Source: Phycisphaerae bacterium
Lineage (GTDB): Bacteria; Planctomycetota; Phycisphaerae; Sedimentisphaerales; SG8-4
Length of the DNA: 8,685 nt
Assembly: GCA_030613765.1 (NCBI GenBank)
Contig: JAUWLI010000108.1
Location: forward strand, 1 to 8,685
Direction of reading: 5' to 3'
Below the pieces are notes generated by a model, which was not told where the DNA came from, did no database searches, and worked only from the letters and a program-made list of their open reading frames with translations. Position numbers and translations under genes: made by a program. This document shows positions 251 to 8,685 of this stretch, piece after piece; positions within the stretch are counted from its first letter, which is position 1; every line of letters begins with the position of its first letter.

Positions 251-1441
251 ATGAATATCAGCAAACGAGCACAGGCCGTTCCGCCTTCGGCTACTCTCGC
301 CGTTTCGGCGAGGGCACAGGAATTGAAAGCTCAGGGGATGGATGTAATCGGTTTTGGTGCCGGCGCACCGGATTTTGACACCCCAGACTATATCAAAGAA
401 GCTGCTGTAGATGCCCTCAAGGCAGGCAAAACAAAATACACGGCCGCAGCAGGCATCATCGAGCTAAAAACCGCCATCGCCGAAAAGCTCGCTAAGGAAA
501 ATAACCTCAAATACACTCCCGACCAGATCATTGTAAACATTGGCGGCAAACACTCCGTCTACGAGGCCATGCAGGCCATACTCGACCCCGGCGATGAAGT
601 TATTCTGCCAACTCCGTACTGGGTAACATATCCGGAAGCAATAAAGCTTGCCGATGCTACTCCTAAGATTGTCCGGACGGAGAAAGATAACGGCTATAAA
701 ATTACGCCATCCCAGCTAAAAGATGCCATCACCGAGAAGACTACATTGCTGCTGATAAACTCACCCAATAATCCAGGCGGCTTTACATATACACCCGATG
801 AGCTCAAGGCCATCGCCAGGGTACTCGAAGGAACGAACGTCTGCGTTATTTCAGATGAAATCTACGAGAAACTAATCTATGGTGACACCAAATTTATAAG
901 CTTTGCCTCAATAAGCGAAGATGCTTTCAACAGGACCCTCACCCTCAACGGTTTCAGCAAGGCATTCTCAATGACAGGCTGGCGTCTCGGTTACACGGCA
1001 GGGCCCCTCGATGTGATAAAGGCAATGGGCCGGCTGCAATCCCACATGACTTCAAATCCTGTCACCTTTGGTCAATATGCCGCTATTGCTGCCCTCGGCC
1101 CGCCCGCCGAAGAGGCCATCGAAAATATGAGAATTGAATTTGAACGGCGGGGAAAATATATGACCGAACGCCTAAACAGCATCAAGGGCGTCGAATGTCT
1201 TGAATCCACCGGTGCTTTTTACTCTTTCCCTGATGTTTCCGGCCATTATGGCAGAACCATTAATAATGCGGCCATCAACGGCAGCATGGACTTTGCAAAA
1301 GCGCTTTTGGAGCAGGCAAATGTCGCCCTCGTGCCGGGCTTGCCCTTTGGCTGCGACGATAACGTCCGCTTAAGTTTCGCCTGCTCGCTTGAACAGATTA
1401 CAGAAGGTTTGGACAGACTCGAAAAATGGCTGGCCCAATAG
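251..1441 (+). CDS. Class I PLP-dependent aspartate aminotransferase (subgroup Ib), possibly also prephenate aminotransferase
   Basis: Predicted cytosolic enzyme that moves an amino group between aspartate and 2-oxoglutarate. Some subgroup Ib members also transaminate prephenate to arogenate. The 396 residues are the usual full length. Visible family marks are the N-terminal SATLAVSARA, GFGAGAPDFDTP (34-45) for the usual GxGEPDFDTP, GGKHSVYE (98-105), SPNNPGG (171-177), SDEIYE with the PLP-ring aspartate D202, NGFSKAFSMTGWRLGY with the Schiff-base lysine K237, and NVRLSFA with the substrate-carboxylate arginine R373. KYTAAAGI (62-69) replaces the common KYTPxAGI. The ATG has a good SD (AGGAG, 237-241). 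It appears monocistronic: its own promoter lies upstream and a strong hairpin downstream. The fold and reaction class are secure; the exact substrate is not, so no symbol is given. Confidence 0.93.
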   Translation: MNISKRAQAVPPSATLAVSARAQELKAQGMDVIGFGAGAPDFDTPDYIKEAAVDALKAGKTKYTAAAGIIELKTAIAEKLAKENNLKYTPDQIIVNIGGKHSVYEAMQAILDPGDEVILPTPYWVTYPEAIKLADATPKIVRTEKDNGYKITPSQLKDAITEKTTLLLINSPNNPGGFTYTPDELKAIARVLEGTNVCVISDEIYEKLIYGDTKFISFASISEDAFNRTLTLNGFSKAFSMTGWRLGYTAGPLDVIKAMGRLQSHMTSNPVTFGQYAAIAALGPPAEEAIENMRIEFERRGKYMTERLNSIKGVECLESTGAFYSFPDVSGHYGRTINNAAINGSMDFAKALLEQANVALVPGLPFGCDDNVRLSFACSLEQITEGLDRLEKWLAQ

Positions 1442-1628: not shown

Positions 1629-2180
1629 GTGGCGTCAAGAGCGGAAAGAAAGAATCTAAAGAGGTTGCGTCAGGGTCGGCGCAAGGCTTATGAAGCAGCA
1701 GTGCTTCAGCATTACAGGACCGTTTTCTGTTTTATGGCTTATTTGACGCGCGACACAGGGCTTGCTGAGGAGTTGACACAGGAGACTTTCGCCTCTGCAT
1801 GGGCCAACATTGATTCTTTCAAAGCCAGGTCATCATTCCAAACGTGGCTGCACACGATTGCTTACCGAAAATTCATTGACTCAAAACGCAGCCACCGCCG
1901 AGACGCTGATTTGATGGCCGGCTTAGAGGTTGAAAATGATAATGCAACGCAAGATTCAAATCCCTTGCACCGGCTCTCCGCAGACGAAAACACGCGTCTG
2001 CTATACGAAGCGATGCGCAGTTTGAAACAGGCTGAATACATAGCCATTCTCTTGCATTACATTCAGGGTCTCAGCTTTCGACAGGTCGCAAAAGTGTTAA
2101 ACCAGCCCGTCGGGACTGTTAAGTGGCAGACTTCCCGGGCCCTGAAAACATTAAAGCAATATTTATCTGGCAGGGTATAA
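1629..2180 (+). CDS. ECF-type RNA polymerase sigma factor (sigma70 family)
   Basis: A 183-residue sigma factor with only the two domains usual for the ECF group. Region 2 spans about 22-88 and includes AEELTQETFASAWANIDSF and the promoter-melting/-10 helix SFQTWLHTIAYRKFIDSKR. Region 4 spans about 122-178 and contains the helix-turn-helix LSFRQVAKVLNQPVGTVKW, which would read the -35 element. A polar linker (about 89-120) joins them, and there is no sigma 1.1 or region 3. It would direct RNA polymerase to a small regulon, usually for envelope stress or surface functions. The first 20 residues are very basic (RKNLKRLRQGRRK). Translation starts at GTG. The next gene begins two bases after its TAA and encodes a membrane protein, the usual arrangement for sigma/anti-sigma pairs. 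The specific ECF subgroup was not determined. Confidence 0.92.
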   Translation: MASRAERKNLKRLRQGRRKAYEAAVLQHYRTVFCFMAYLTRDTGLAEELTQETFASAWANIDSFKARSSFQTWLHTIAYRKFIDSKRSHRRDADLMAGLEVENDNATQDSNPLHRLSADENTRLLYEAMRSLKQAEYIAILLHYIQGLSFRQVAKVLNQPVGTVKWQTSRALKTLKQYLSGRV

Positions 2181-2716: not shown

Positions 2717-3094
2717 ATGGAAATGGAACGAAACATAGGCGATATATTCAGTGACATAATAAACCCAAAAGCAAAAACTTCCAAAATGGCGGTCACCTCT
2801 ATGGTATTGGGAATTCTTGCTCCTTGTTGCTTTTTCGCTGTTTGGATTGTATCATCCTTTTCTTCTTATGGTATAATAACTGTGGGTCGATATATAATGA
2901 CTGCTTTTTCTTGCTCTGTAGCCTGGATTTTGGGCCTTGTATTAGGAATGATATCTCTTGAGCAGATACGGAACAGTGAACAACATTTGATTGGAACCGC
3001 GTATGCTGTTGTAGGGATTGCAATATCTGCGCTCTGGATAGCTTTGTTAGTGGTACGTTTTTTGTTACCTGCGTTATTTTACGTGGTAAGTTAA
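2717..3094 (+). CDS. DUF4190-like small integral membrane protein
   Basis: A 125-residue inner-membrane protein of unknown function. A short polar N-terminus (1-22) is followed by three hydrophobic stretches at about 24-46, 52-80 and 94-122. The signature resembles DUF4190: KTSKMAVTSMVLGIL at the start of the first helix, GLVLGMISLEQIRNSEQHLIG at the loop after the second (the family usually shows GxIALxQIRxSxGxxxG), then YAVVGIAISALW. The family normally has two such helices around the conserved loop; here the first helix is longer and followed by an extra aromatic segment. A second ATG two codons downstream (2723) is an alternative start. It has its own promoter, and the next gene begins 67 bp after its stop, so read-through into the large membrane protein is possible. 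No function is assigned. Confidence 0.78.
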   Translation: MEMERNIGDIFSDIINPKAKTSKMAVTSMVLGILAPCCFFAVWIVSSFSSYGIITVGRYIMTAFSCSVAWILGLVLGMISLEQIRNSEQHLIGTAYAVVGIAISALWIALLVVRFLLPALFYVVS

Positions 3095-3161: not shown

Positions 3162-6100
3162 ATGGCCAAGCCGGTAAGACGCGTCAAAAATGCTGCAAAA
3201 ACAAAAAATACGGTAGAAACTCTCGATATTTCTAACGAGCAAACATCCAATATACGTCATGCTTTGTCTGGCTGGCCGATGATCTTAGGCTGGCTCGCTA
3301 TGCTCATCTTCGCTTTCCACTCCAGCACGCACATGGTCGGTGCCGGCGATACGTGGGTCGCGATGGCTTGTGGCAGACACTTTCTAAACAACGGCGTGAA
3401 CACCGTAGAGCCATTCAGCGCAAACTCGCACAAGGCGGGTCCCTCGGCGGCTGAAATCAGAAAATGGCCCGGTTGGGCACAATCCATTGCTGATAAAGTC
3501 AGCCCCGAGACACTGAAGTACTGGCATCCTACTGGATGGGTAAACCAGAACTGGCTCACACATGTCATCTTCTACTGGCTCACACACGAATCGCCCATAG
3601 CGGACCCTGATGCTTTTCCGCCGTCATTCAATCAGCTCGTATACTGGAAGATTGCCCTTTACATAGTTTCAGTCATTTGTGTTTACTACATAGGCAGAAT
3701 CTTGGGTGCCAACCCGGCCCTGTCAGCATTCTTCGCGTGCTTTGCAATGTTCGTAGGCCGTTCTTTCTTTGACGTCCGGCCCGCCGGCTTCTCAAACGCC
3801 CTCGTAGCGGTCTATTTGCTTATACTTGTTCTTGCAACATACAGAAACATATTATATATCTGGCTCATCGTACCCGTCGTCACTTTCTGGTGTAATCTCC
3901 ACGGCGGATACATCTATGCATTCATTATGCTCGTACCGTTTGTCGTGCTGAACTTTCTCACGAGCTTTTCAAAAAAATGGTTCGTTTCAATCGGCCTCAG
4001 AGGTGTATATCACACCATCGCCGCCGGATTTGTCGCTTTCATTGCGACTATCGTATTCAATCCCTTTCATTTGACGAACCTCACACACACCTTCGTCATT
4101 AGTTTCAGCAAGCACGCCGAAATGTGGCGAACAGTAAACGAATGGCACCCGGCTTTTGAATGGACAAATCCAGTCGGCACAAGTTTCCCTTTTTTGGTTC
4201 TTTATATTCTAAGTATAGGCTTGACTTTATTTTGGCTCTTCTCTCGACTCCTAAAGCCAAGATTACTCAGAGCACCGATAAATGAGCTCCAGGAACAGAA
4301 ACAGCTCTTCACAACACTCTCAAAAATCCTCGGATGCGCGACCGCCATTCTTGTTTGTTGGATCATACTTATTAGTTTCTCGCTTCTTAACTTTTCTACG
4401 GTCGATTTTCTTATTAGTGCGGCATTCGTCGGTATCATCCTCCTTAGTATCTACAGGAATGTACACTTCATTACTCTGGTAATTCCACTAATTCTTCTCG
4501 TTATGGGATTCGTTGATCCTGATTGGATTAAGGTGTTCTCGCGGTGGTTCAACTCTCCGGAGTGGCTGAGAAACATCCCCAGCGGCTATAACGGAAGATA
4601 TATCTACCCTTTCATCCTGTTGCCCGCTTATGTCACGATGCATATTTTCGCTTCCTTGTTCTCAAAGAACGTCAAATTCAAACAAACCAACATCATCTAT
4701 CCCGTATTAGCATCACTTGCTACCATCCTCTTGATGATGCTCATATTTAATCCTTTCGGTTTCAAATTCCAGTCTTGGACTATGAAGCCTGCCGAAGGCT
4801 TCTTCCCTTCCATCTTCAGTTGGTTCCTTGCTGTTCTTAATTGGGTGATCAGTTGCTTGACACAATTTCTAAACTTTCATCGGCTGACGCGCCCGGTATA
4901 TGAACGTAATGTCGAAGTAAACTACACAAATTTGTTTGCCGCGCTTTATATACTGAGCATTATTTCGATTATTATCTGGTTAATGTTACCATATCTGCGA
5001 AAGATTTTCAGTCAGTTGCCGAACAAAACCGAGGAACAACTACCTGCCGATACTTACCGCTTGCCTAAAATCGATTTGGTTATGATTGCCATTGCCGTCC
5101 TCACTACATATATGGCCATTCAGTCACGAAGGTTCATACCGATTGCTGCTTTCGCCGCCTGTCCCGTTGTGGCGATGTTCATCGACCAGATAGTTCGGAC
5201 AATCTCGGCCGCAAGAAACTTCCACGGTAAAAATCAGCTCACCGTCTCGCCAATGTCACAGCCGCTCCAATTGTTTTTCATCGTTCTCGGAGCAGTGGTT
5301 GTTTTAATCTCAGGTGCAGGTTGGGGCCTTAAATTTAAGCGCGTTTATCTCGATGCATGGCCCACCGATTCGAAATTAAATTCCGCTTTTATGAGAATGA
5401 CTGCATCCGATGCAAAACCGTTCTATGCCTGTAAATTTATAAGAGACAACAAAATAGGGGGTAAAGTATTCAATTACTGGACAGAAGGGGGTTTCATCGC
5501 CTACGGTCAGAATCCTGATCCGAACACAGGAAGAACTCCTCTGCAATTATTTATGGACGGCAGGGCACAGGCGGCTTATGAGCCCAATGCTTACAGAATG
5601 TGGTCTGATATTATGTCTGGTGGACCCGCTGTCTACGAGGCAAAGGTCAGAAAAAAGGCCTTCGACTACAAAAAAATCGGAAATTGGGTGGATAAAAAAC
5701 TGAAAGGACAAAAGGTTTGGGTCGTCTTAATGCCGACCGGACAGTTTGAAACACCTTTTACAAAAGGACTCGAATATCACCCCGATTGGCAGATTGTTTT
5801 CTATAATAACAAGCAAAAGCTCTTCGTTGATATAAAAACGCCCCAGGGAAAGAAAATCTCTGATGGTATTTCCACTGGAGAAACGCTGTACCCCGATGAT
5901 TTTTCTCGAAACCTTATTATGGCCCAGACAGGCTTTACAATCGATCCGAAAACAAATGCAAAACAGGCATTTGAATTTGCTAAAAAAGCATTCGAGTTAA
6001 ATCAGTCACAGGCGCCTATGCGGCAGGTAATGCTCGCCACAAGGTTCCCGGGGCTAAGAGCTGATGCTGAGGTGTTTTGCAGAAATTATTTTAAACAGTT

Positions 6101-6293
6101 TGAAGAAAATATAGAGACCTGGCCCAAAGAGGATGGCTATCACCATAGAATCGCTGCCGCATTAAACGCCTGCAGTTTTTTAAGAGAAATTGCCAAAAGG
6201 GCGAAAAACACAAAACTTGAACAGGAGTATGCCGCAAAAATGAAACTCTATCAAAGTAGGCGACAACTGTTACTCAAAAGAAAAAGGTGGTGA
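3162..6293 (+). CDS. Large polytopic GT-C-like membrane protein with C-terminal soluble region
   Basis: A 1043-residue inner-membrane protein with about 17-18 predicted helices between residues 38 and 722 and a soluble C-terminus from about 723. It belongs to a widespread, mostly unnamed family that I recognise by GAGDTWVAMACGRHFL (60-74) after the first helix, the motif WVNQNWLTHVIFYWL (126-140), DVRPAGFSNALVAVYLL (204-220), and WCNLHGGYIYAF (243-254). This layout, with an acidic GDTW motif in the first outer loop, resembles GT-C glycosyltransferases that use polyprenyl-phosphate sugars; catalysis is inferred. The soluble part has VFNYWTEGGFIAYG (769-782), MDGRAQAAY (798-806), a small alpha/beta segment around VWVVLMPTG, then a TPR-like helical tail (about 930-1040) ending in basic residues. 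It is longer than the typical member, with extra helices at about 480-610. The coupled downstream GT2 supports a glycan role. Confidence 0.7.
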   Translation: MAKPVRRVKNAAKTKNTVETLDISNEQTSNIRHALSGWPMILGWLAMLIFAFHSSTHMVGAGDTWVAMACGRHFLNNGVNTVEPFSANSHKAGPSAAEIRKWPGWAQSIADKVSPETLKYWHPTGWVNQNWLTHVIFYWLTHESPIADPDAFPPSFNQLVYWKIALYIVSVICVYYIGRILGANPALSAFFACFAMFVGRSFFDVRPAGFSNALVAVYLLILVLATYRNILYIWLIVPVVTFWCNLHGGYIYAFIMLVPFVVLNFLTSFSKKWFVSIGLRGVYHTIAAGFVAFIATIVFNPFHLTNLTHTFVISFSKHAEMWRTVNEWHPAFEWTNPVGTSFPFLVLYILSIGLTLFWLFSRLLKPRLLRAPINELQEQKQLFTTLSKILGCATAILVCWIILISFSLLNFSTVDFLISAAFVGIILLSIYRNVHFITLVIPLILLVMGFVDPDWIKVFSRWFNSPEWLRNIPSGYNGRYIYPFILLPAYVTMHIFASLFSKNVKFKQTNIIYPVLASLATILLMMLIFNPFGFKFQSWTMKPAEGFFPSIFSWFLAVLNWVISCLTQFLNFHRLTRPVYERNVEVNYTNLFAALYILSIISIIIWLMLPYLRKIFSQLPNKTEEQLPADTYRLPKIDLVMIAIAVLTTYMAIQSRRFIPIAAFAACPVVAMFIDQIVRTISAARNFHGKNQLTVSPMSQPLQLFFIVLGAVVVLISGAGWGLKFKRVYLDAWPTDSKLNSAFMRMTASDAKPFYACKFIRDNKIGGKVFNYWTEGGFIAYGQNPDPNTGRTPLQLFMDGRAQAAYEPNAYRMWSDIMSGGPAVYEAKVRKKAFDYKKIGNWVDKKLKGQKVWVVLMPTGQFETPFTKGLEYHPDWQIVFYNNKQKLFVDIKTPQGKKISDGISTGETLYPDDFSRNLIMAQTGFTIDPKTNAKQAFEFAKKAFELNQSQAPMRQVMLATRFPGLRADAEVFCRNYFKQFEENIETWPKEDGYHHRIAAALNACSFLREIAKRAKNTKLEQEYAAKMKLYQSRRQLLLKRKRW

Positions 6294-6299
6294 CCTGTG
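6285..6299 (+). promoter_or_regulatory. Shine-Dalgarno and GTG start overlapping the end of the upstream gene
   Basis: AGGTGGTGA (6285-6293) is a strong SD formed by the last codons and the TGA stop of the large membrane protein gene. The GTG start of the glycosyltransferase follows at 6297-6299. A ribosome ending the first gene stops directly on the second gene's binding site, so translation should be coupled. This also decides for GTG, as the first ATG in this frame is far downstream. Confidence 0.65.
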
Positions 6300-7040
6300 A
6301 CAGAGCATGACTCGAATAAAATCACTGCTGATTCAGGCCCCCAAAAGTCTGTTTCCATAAGTGTTTTCTTTCCATGCTTTAATGAACAGGGCAACGTCGC
6401 GCGTACAGTCCAGAACGCACTTGATGTCTTGGAAAACCTGAAAGCGAACTTCGAGGTAATTATCGTTGACGACGGAAGCCGCGACGAAACAGCAAAAATT
6501 GCCGACGAAATCGCCGCTCAAAACAGCAGGGTCAAAGTAGTCCGCCATCCTGCTAATCTCGGTTATGGCGCCGCTTTGCAGTCCGGCTTCAAAGCTGCAA
6601 AAAAAGATCTCGTCTTTTACACAGATGGCGATGGTCAGTTCGATATAAAGGAAATGCCACCTTTACTGCATCTGATGGAAAAATTCGATATTGTATGTTG
6701 CTACAGGCTAAACAGACAGGACCCGCTTGTAAGAAAAATAAACGGATGGGCATGGACAAAGCTGGTTTGCTTCGTATTCGGCATCAAAGTTCGCGACATC
6801 GATTGTGCTTTCAAATTATTCAAAACAAAAATCTTCGAAAATATGGTATTGTCGAGCACTGGAGCGCTCATCGACGCTGAAATCTTGGCTCGGGCTGTAC
6901 GAAAAGGTTGTTCTGTTACTCAAAAGGGCGTGCATCATTATCCCAGAACAGCCGGCGCGCAAACCGGCGCAAACTTAAAGGTCATTCTCCGTGCCTTCAA
7001 AGAGTTGTTTAAATTACGCCGAAATATTCGGCAATCGTGA
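6297..7040 (+). CDS. Family 2 glycosyltransferase, DPM1-like polyprenyl-phosphate sugar transferase
   Basis: 247 residues, cytoplasmic or peripherally membrane-bound, predicted to transfer a sugar from a nucleotide donor to a polyprenyl phosphate. The GT-A fold marks are in order: ISVFFPCFNEQGNVARTV (21-38), VIIVDDGSRDET (54-65) for the nucleotide, VRHPANLGYGAALQSGF (82-98), the metal-binding DGDGQFD (110-116), and the family tail RDIDCAFKLFKT (166-177), where DPM1-type enzymes read 'D..(C/S)GFKL/R'. The acceptor-side GALIDAEILARAVRKG (189-204) and VHHYPRTAG (212-220) are also typical. No C-terminal transmembrane pair is present, unlike the GtrB/ArnC type, so this is the short soluble form. 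It starts 3 nt after the GT-C-like gene, which would be the natural user of its lipid-linked sugar. The sugar identity is unknown. Confidence 0.88.
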   Translation: MTEHDSNKITADSGPQKSVSISVFFPCFNEQGNVARTVQNALDVLENLKANFEVIIVDDGSRDETAKIADEIAAQNSRVKVVRHPANLGYGAALQSGFKAAKKDLVFYTDGDGQFDIKEMPPLLHLMEKFDIVCCYRLNRQDPLVRKINGWAWTKLVCFVFGIKVRDIDCAFKLFKTKIFENMVLSSTGALIDAEILARAVRKGCSVTQKGVHHYPRTAGAQTGANLKVILRAFKELFKLRRNIRQS

Positions 7041-7090: not shown

Positions 7091-8685
7091 ATGACCGATG
7101 AAGAAAAACTCAACCTGTTCATCTATGGCTCACTGCGTGACCGCAGGATCTTCAAATCAGTAAGCAGCTTCAGTTTTACCAGAAAGCCCTCGAAAGTCGG
7201 CGAAAAGACTCTGCTGGCTGAACCCGCATTACTGCCGCACTATCGAAAACTCAGCCCCGACAATGTCTATTTCTATGCTGTACCGGCTAAGTCTGCAAGA
7301 ATTGATGGATTTGTAATCTATGATATACCTGCCCACGCAATCGCTGAAATCGATAGTTATGAAGGAAAAAGATACGACAGGGAGACCGTCCACGTAAACA
7401 CCGCAAAAGGTATCGTCGAAGCACAGGCATACATGACAACCCGCGAGTCGATGAAAAAACACTTCGGAGACAGGTTCCACGTCAATTTAATACACGAGCT
7501 TTGGCTCAGGAAAAGGATTGAGAAATTTATTAAAAGGCACACTCGGCCCGGCGAACGTACAATAGACGCCGAATTGGAACGACGGGCCGAAAGAGAGCTC
7601 ATCGCAACTACTGAACGTGACCTCGTTATGAGCCATTATCAAACAGATGCCGTCAGCGATTATTATCTTGAGCACGAGCTTGACCGCCCGCGACCAAGCA
7701 TAAAACATTTATACGACGACCCAATGGCCGGGCCACTCATCAAAAATTATTTGCCTTTGGTTCTAAAACAGGTATTGCTCAATCAGCTCGACGACAAAAT
7801 CCAGTCGGAGTATCGATTCGACCTTGAGCACATGCGTACTTCTGAGAGATATTTCAAGCGCTCTATTAGTCTTCTTGTCGCTTTGCAAATGATAAATACA
7901 AACAGCAGGGCGGTTGATTTGATTGTGCAGGAATGTCTTCAAACTATGCCCTGTCAAAAATACGACCTCATTGACTACGTCAAATACGCCGTACAGGCCG
8001 CAAGGAGCATGTTTCATTCTCGTATTGCACGGGCACACTTGGAACGCATTCGCGCCAATTTTCAGCCCGGCGTCGTACCGCTCGGAATTGAAGTCGAGTT
8101 AAGCAACCTCGGTCCCGCTGCCGTTGAGCCACAGAGAAGCATACAAAATAAAATTGACCCGATATTTAACGGGTTTAAGTATTTCTATGATTTTCATCTC
8201 GATGTATTGTCATGGAAAATCGGAGGCTACATCGACGACCACTCCGGATCAACAGACCGAGTACGGCGAGCGGGTTTTCTTGAGCTGGCCCCTGGAAGAC
8301 TAAACATCGCTGGTGAGCTCTCCCGGCCGGCGACCGCCGATCCTTGGCTCCTTAATCACTTAATACAGGAGATAGCAAATTTCTATGACGTTCGGCCGCA
8401 CAGTTTGCATCTTTCTTTTCAACTTAGAAAAAAACAAATCGGTAATCAAAATATTCTACCTTTAGGTTTTGTCAAGTGCCTCCTTGTCCTCGGTGGCGGA
8501 CCGGAAGTAAAAGATACCGGGAAAATGTGGCTTTCAAGAATGGGGTATGATGAGATAACACAATACGGATACGGTGAAGAGCTTGTCTTTGCAAGGACCA
8601 GCAAAAGAAGATGGTATTTGGGAGGAGATGATATTGCAAACAGGCCCCCCGCGCAGGCAACTACACATGTCCAGCAGTATAAATT
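7091..8685 (+). CDS. GGCT/AIG2-like domain fused to a probable amidoligase (GCS-like) domain, 3' end outside window
   Basis: Open from ATG to the window edge (531 codons, no stop), so the C-terminus is missing. Residues 8-115 look like a gamma-glutamylcyclotransferase/AIG2 fold: LFIYGSLRD (9-17) carries the YGSL substrate loop, and IDSYEGKRYDRETV (87-100) carries the catalytic-type glutamate E91 plus the family's EGxxYxRxxV pattern. Residues about 135-325 are helical, charged and unrecognised. From about 328 the sequence resembles GCS-like carboxylate-amine ligases: PLGIEVELS (330-338) with E334 and E336, DDHSGSTDR (382-390), GFLELAPGR and GELSRP (395-413), and HSLHLSFQLR (437-446) at the place of the usual HVH strand. 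An in-frame TAA at 7085-7087 fixes the start at 7091. There is no clear SD. GGCT is fairly sure; amidoligase is an inference. No signal peptide or membrane helix is visible. Confidence 0.65.
   Translation, partial: MTDEEKLNLFIYGSLRDRRIFKSVSSFSFTRKPSKVGEKTLLAEPALLPHYRKLSPDNVYFYAVPAKSARIDGFVIYDIPAHAIAEIDSYEGKRYDRETVHVNTAKGIVEAQAYMTTRESMKKHFGDRFHVNLIHELWLRKRIEKFIKRHTRPGERTIDAELERRAERELIATTERDLVMSHYQTDAVSDYYLEHELDRPRPSIKHLYDDPMAGPLIKNYLPLVLKQVLLNQLDDKIQSEYRFDLEHMRTSERYFKRSISLLVALQMINTNSRAVDLIVQECLQTMPCQKYDLIDYVKYAVQAARSMFHSRIARAHLERIRANFQPGVVPLGIEVELSNLGPAAVEPQRSIQNKIDPIFNGFKYFYDFHLDVLSWKIGGYIDDHSGSTDRVRRAGFLELAPGRLNIAGELSRPATADPWLLNHLIQEIANFYDVRPHSLHLSFQLRKKQIGNQNILPLGFVKCLLVLGGGPEVKDTGKMWLSRMGYDEITQYGYGEELVFARTSKRRWYLGGDDIANRPPAQATTHVQQYK

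Follow-up and report, generated by a model that had tools for sequence, protein, structure and literature searches.

The 8,685-nucleotide stretch of the Phycisphaerae bacterium contig JAUWLI010000108.1 (hereafter the window) ends within a gene at 7091..8685 of the forward strand. Its product almost certainly joins two domains in one chain, an N-terminal GGCT/AIG2 domain and a C-terminal domain of the glutamine synthetase/gamma-glutamylcysteine synthetase (GS/GCS) fold. This is a new combination of known folds, and the C-terminal part represents an unnamed ligase-fold family. The two predicted active sites are probably both catalytic. Since these conserved and opposed sites share one chain, the simplest reading is that one would make and the other would cut a gamma-glutamyl amide, although we regard the complete make-and-break scheme as evenly poised between right and wrong.

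The gene starts at ATG 7091, from which all residue numbers are counted, and its frame covers 531 codons (7091-8683) without a stop before the right edge, the final two bases of the window being an incomplete codon. A scan of a genome collection revealed 23 loci with relatives of the fused gene. One of them, L001, encodes a protein of 642 amino acids that is 94% identical to the window protein and served as its full-length proxy; judged from it, about 111 residues of the gene lie beyond the window. Counted from where the match begins, the frame remained open for 633 to 658 codons in 22 loci, and only in L023 did it stop earlier, at 372. Because so many loci encode relatives, nearly all with a long open frame, the fused open reading frame (ORF) is confirmed as real and not due to chance. 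The 22 loci aligned together with the window protein showed 64 to 94% identity to L001. By their record titles, 21 of the 23 loci come from Planctomycetota, Phycisphaerae, Phycisphaerales or Sedimentisphaerales, and two from an uncultured bacterium.

The N-terminal domain (residues 1-126, 7091..7468, forward strand) is of the GGCT/AIG2 type, as found both with a hidden Markov model (HMM) and with the predicted structure. The window protein matched PF06094 (GGACT/AIG2-like) with 42.9 bits, against a curated cut-off of 22.8, and 22 of the 23 aligned family members matched it at E values up to 10. In the structure search the predicted model of this domain matched the GGCT fold, and the title of a GGACT E82Q entry appears in the list of matches. 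YGSL is located at residues 12-15 (7124..7135), and E91 (7361..7363) lies within YEGKRYDRETV. Presumably Y12, G13 and E91 play the roles of the YGSL motif and catalytic glutamate of the PF06094 family. These three residues were invariant in all 53 rows that have letters at all five key positions in alignment A6 (72 rows) and in all 47 such rows of alignment A4, whereas position 14 is S or T. The fused gene was the sole PF06094 match in each of the 15 carrier genomes where the PF06094 search matched; in three further carriers that search matched nothing although the fused gene is present there.

Concerning the C-terminal domain (full extent 327-640, with residues 327-531 in the window at 8069..8683, forward strand), the predicted model has the GS/GCS fold. 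This model was obtained with 72 diverse rows as input and reached a predicted local distance difference test (pLDDT) score of 89; an earlier prediction from 23 close rows (pLDDT 56) was discarded. All 32 matches to this domain among the best 50 structure matches listed belonged to the GS/GCS superfamily and extended over 220-252 residues, with Dop and PafA as the nearest among those listed. The original prediction, made from the letters of the sequence, of a GGCT/AIG2 and a GCS-like domain in a single chain is thus borne out by the PF06094 match and by the fold of the C-terminal half. The helical region that it placed between both domains was also recovered: residues 131-325 (7481..8065, forward strand) are mostly helical in the predicted structure and are barely covered by structure matches. 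Likewise, all of the motifs it had named were present at their positions, including those of the putative ligase site that follow.

The stretch GIEVEL (residues 332-337, 8084..8101, forward strand, as are the other elements of this site) contains E334 and E336, conserved in 70 and 69 of the 72 rows and predicted in the Dop register to be Mg ligands. Those of Dop are given as Glu8, Glu10, Tyr92, Glu99, His155 and His241 in its description (PMC8599861). All seven Dop structure matches listed have alignments that pair model residue 327 with Dop residue 1, and E334 and E336 would be equivalent to Glu8 and Glu10 if this start is ungapped and the numbering identical. Downstream are a conserved acidic pair on a strand, D382 D383 (8234..8239; 67/72 and 65/71 rows), ELAPGR (residues 398-403, 8282..8299) with E398 (66/72), GELSRP (residues 408-413) and HSLHLS (residues 437-442, 8399..8416) with H437 (71/72), H440 (67/72) and S442 (69/72), the last two forming the H-L-S strand. 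The positions of E398 and H440 relative to the Dop site are predicted by strand order only.

The residues E91, E334, E336, E398 and H440 were all kept in 48 of the 53 complete rows of A6 and in 45 of the 47 of A4; a fragment, P0231, shows E336Q and E398D. Five rows (P0251, P0253, P0254, P0256 and P0257) retained YG and E91, and of the positions 334, 336, 382, 383, 398 and 440 they changed four or five. Some substitutions are conservative (E to D, D to E), but E398 and H440 were replaced by unlike residues in all five. Of the other 74 C-domain columns with a conservation of 95% or higher in the remaining 47 rows, these five changed 14 to 23. When 87 rows were placed in a tree, the five (two of them named L077 and L078) grouped with a support of 100, and because they form one clade they count as a single set of events, the direction of which we infer from a midpoint root. 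The Dop register, the conservation and this joint loss in one clade support the view that E334, E336, D382, D383, E398 and H440 form one predicted site. The same clade shows that the cyclotransferase half can outlive that site. Purifying selection acts on both domains and most strongly on the C-domain part: the ratio of nonsynonymous to synonymous substitution rates (dN/dS) against five relatives was 0.07-0.12 for the whole frame, 0.08-0.20 for the N-domain and 0.05-0.10 for the C-domain part within the window.

Based on these features, we propose that the fused protein may act as a soluble bifunctional enzyme. In the C-domain a carboxylate, which is most likely the gamma-carboxylate of glutamate, would be activated with Mg-ATP and then linked to an amine. 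Cyclisation in the N-domain, where E91 is the putative catalytic acid/base, would cleave the gamma-glutamyl amide into 5-oxoproline and free amine, and the helical middle would keep both sites together. We infer that ATP is used, which way the reaction runs, that the acyl part comes from glutamate, what the substrate is, and that both halves act on one molecule.

As for the amine, the gene neighbourhood suggests that it is probably a component of the cell envelope, for example an aminosugar or alanine, since the main clade of the family carries a glycosyltransferase and a large membrane protein upstream and one of its branches carries the only alanine racemase of the genome. The comparison covered 97 loci, of which six were dropped as duplicates; the 91 distinct loci comprise a main clade of 68 with a profile score of at least 880 and a divergent clade of 23. 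Marker profiles for the neighbours were built from the first 57 loci, which leaves the 34 distinct loci added later as the only independent ones. In the window, the gene upstream (6297..7040, forward strand) encodes a family 2 glycosyltransferase (GT2; PF00535, E 1.4e-31) whose nearest solved relatives are ArnC-type undecaprenyl-phosphate transferases (E 1.2e-18). Of the 62 main-clade loci that extend at least 700 bases upstream, 56 have a GT2 gene there in the same orientation; among the independent loci of either clade with that much upstream sequence, it was found in 30 of 32. It is preceded by the gene for a membrane protein of 1,043 amino acids (3162..6293, forward strand) with 17 transmembrane-like segments, which gave no Pfam or NCBIfam match and no solved relative (best E 1.1) and may be GT-C-like; where main-clade loci extend 2,500 bases or more upstream, 55 of 58 carry its counterpart. 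For a class I/II aminotransferase resembling aspartate aminotransferase by family match (window 251-1441), counterparts lie within 6 kb upstream in 36 of the 49 main-clade loci where 4,800 bases or more are available.

An alanine racemase gene adjoins the fused gene in 24 of the 68 main-clade loci, directly upstream in L085, L087, L088, L090, L091, L093, L095, L096 and 16 later loci. It was the sole PF00842 match in all ten genomes tested of its branch, and seven of eight other carriers tested had no PF00842 match. A more specific version of the proposal, which we put forward as speculation and think unlikely to hold in full, is that these proteins are a new family of one-chain enzymes of Phycisphaerae-type planctomycetes. 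With ATP they would attach a gamma-glutamyl group to an amine of the envelope, either alanine or an aminosugar bound to polyprenyl phosphate, and later remove it as 5-oxoproline, the group serving as protection or as a reversible charge switch while the cell surface is built. The original prediction looked for partner genes past the right edge, but the next 111 residues there are the rest of the same gene, as judged from L001, and the most recurrent partners lie upstream, inside the window. Nor did an ATP-grasp, peptidase or small-peptide gene, which it had proposed to look for there, appear among the recurrent downstream neighbours identified.

Several observations weigh against the make-and-break proposal. 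The divergent clade showed the GT2 gene in 0 of 21 loci, the membrane protein in 0 of 18, the aminotransferase in 0 of 14 and the alanine racemase in 0 of 23, and the racemase neighbour is confined to one branch of the main clade. The C-domain had no sequence link to any ligase family by Pfam (E<=10), PHROGs, PDB sequences or hhalign. In particular, the window protein and 22 relatives gave no HMM match at E<=10 to Amidoligase_2 (PF12224) or to Pup ligase/Dop (PF03136). With hhalign the domain aligned with Amidoligase_2 at a probability of 0.1-0.2 over 10-12 columns and showed no detectable kinship to Pup ligase; these failed comparisons carry little weight, because the control of Amidoligase_2 against Pup ligase failed equally. 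Foldseek gave for this domain only E values of 0.046 (glutamine synthetase) and 0.13 (Dop). Finally, Dop, a hydrolase, and PafA, a ligase, tie as structure matches, and therefore the fold cannot discriminate between a ligase and a hydrolase.

This tie leaves room for a C-domain that resembles Dop in function and is an amidase or deamidase dependent on ATP or phosphate. Both halves would then break bonds, either in succession or at separate places in a single conjugate. We consider this improbable: the bond-making GCS, YbdK and glutamine synthetases match the fold almost as well as Dop, and neither the PF03136 family nor Pup (PF05639) was found in any of the 18 carrier genomes tested, with C. 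glutamicum positive as control for both. A link to pupylation was dropped on the same result. The five-row clade raises another alternative, since it shows that some genomes can do without the predicted ligase residues, which also counts against our proposal. With E91 and YG kept in those rows, only the GGCT half might be enzymatic, and the C-domain might have decayed into a scaffold or sensor, which would bind nucleotide or glutamate and modulate its partner. However, the ligase set is kept in the great majority of rows, constraint is strongest on the C-domain part, and the five rows are a single clade, and we find this explanation harder still to accept. A Pup-like modification of proteins or peptide tails with another tag, conjugated by the C-domain and trimmed by the GGCT domain, would suit the proximity of the fold to Dop and PafA but is very unlikely given that Pup is lacking in the carriers and that no small conserved gene beside the fused gene stood out when ORFs of at least 45 amino acids were clustered, shorter genes not being sought.

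Other genes of the window and its relatives may be mentioned. Between the aminotransferase and the large membrane protein are an extracytoplasmic function (ECF) sigma factor gene (window 1629-2180), overlapping an anti-sigma-like gene (2123-2563), and a small membrane protein gene (window 2717-3094) with three transmembrane-like segments and a DUF4190 score of 31.6 bits, below the cut-off of 35. Some of the other loci also have the ECF sigma gene. Downstream, also in part of the loci, there are a convergent NUDIX gene and heptosyltransferase-like and Kdo-kinase-like genes; within the alanine racemase branch (L088-L096, L123-L140), many loci have a convergent gene there that was read by eye as malate/lactate dehydrogenase-like. 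A search for D-Ala-D-Ala ligase as a test for peptidoglycan was uninformative, since all 14 controls, among them archaea, were positive.

A protein search in which 7,998 candidates were scored identified 1,141 relatives at E<=0.001. Among the 120 relatives listed, PF06094 was the only precomputed domain in 119 and P0050 had none; P0045, also listed, carries the name of a Coxiella assembly. Four proteins of 345-380 amino acids (P0157, P0168, P0178 and P0195) match the C-domain and have no PF06094. They are either stand-alone copies of the C-domain or broken frames; contig ends are not a likely cause, because the longest contigs measure 1,016, 392, 84 and 118 kb, respectively. The A1 profile matched 6 of 294 genomes sampled from the phylum and 101 of 397 sampled from the class, one of the latter (G487) over the N-domain only; these are plain genome counts regardless of kinship, and all six carriers of the phylum sample recur in the class sample. 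For comparison, searches within the phylum detected Amidoligase_2 in 4 of 149 genomes and Pup ligase in 16 of 119. No relative of the fused protein was found in the viral contigs scanned.

These results provide two testable predicted active sites for a conserved protein whose database names derive only from its N-domain, and add to the GS/GCS ligases an unnamed family in which a ligase fold and a gamma-glutamyl cyclotransferase share one chain. The five-row clade, with its ligase site changed and its cyclotransferase site kept, is a natural control, and, if the envelope link is true, planctomycete surface chemistry would become open to direct assay. A limited literature search on amidoligases, AIG2 and gamma-glutamylcyclotransferase fusions yielded no report of a GGCT-amidoligase fusion, a weak test that left the main amidoligase review outside it. 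The N-domain shares sequence family, fold, YGSL motif and conserved glutamate with the GGCT/GGACT/AIG2 cyclotransferases, but known members are mostly single-domain proteins and here the domain heads a chain of 640 amino acids. Unlike Dop and Pup ligase, the protein has no PF03136 match and its tested carriers have no Pup or pupylation genes; it differs from gamma-glutamylcysteine synthetases and YbdK-type carboxylate-amine ligases in showing no sequence match to them and in its fusion to a GGCT domain and a helical middle. Making and cutting of the same kind of amide has precedents in glutathionylspermidine synthetase/amidase, where both activities reside in one polypeptide, and in BtrJ/BtrG of butirosin synthesis, where a gamma-glutamyl group is protective. 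However, the ligases of both are of the ATP-grasp type, unlike the domain described here, and the amidase of the former has another fold. Phages encode an amidoligase and an AIG2 protein separately, according to the reports on UFV-P2 (PMC3890496) and on a planctomycete phage (PMC10945688). UFV-P2 resembles the present case in that its Amidoligase_2 (PF12224) and AIG2 genes bring two related activities into one cluster and in a similar stretch, GIEVELE against GIEVEL. No significant profile match connects the two, and what that phage distributes over separate genes is here united in one chain.
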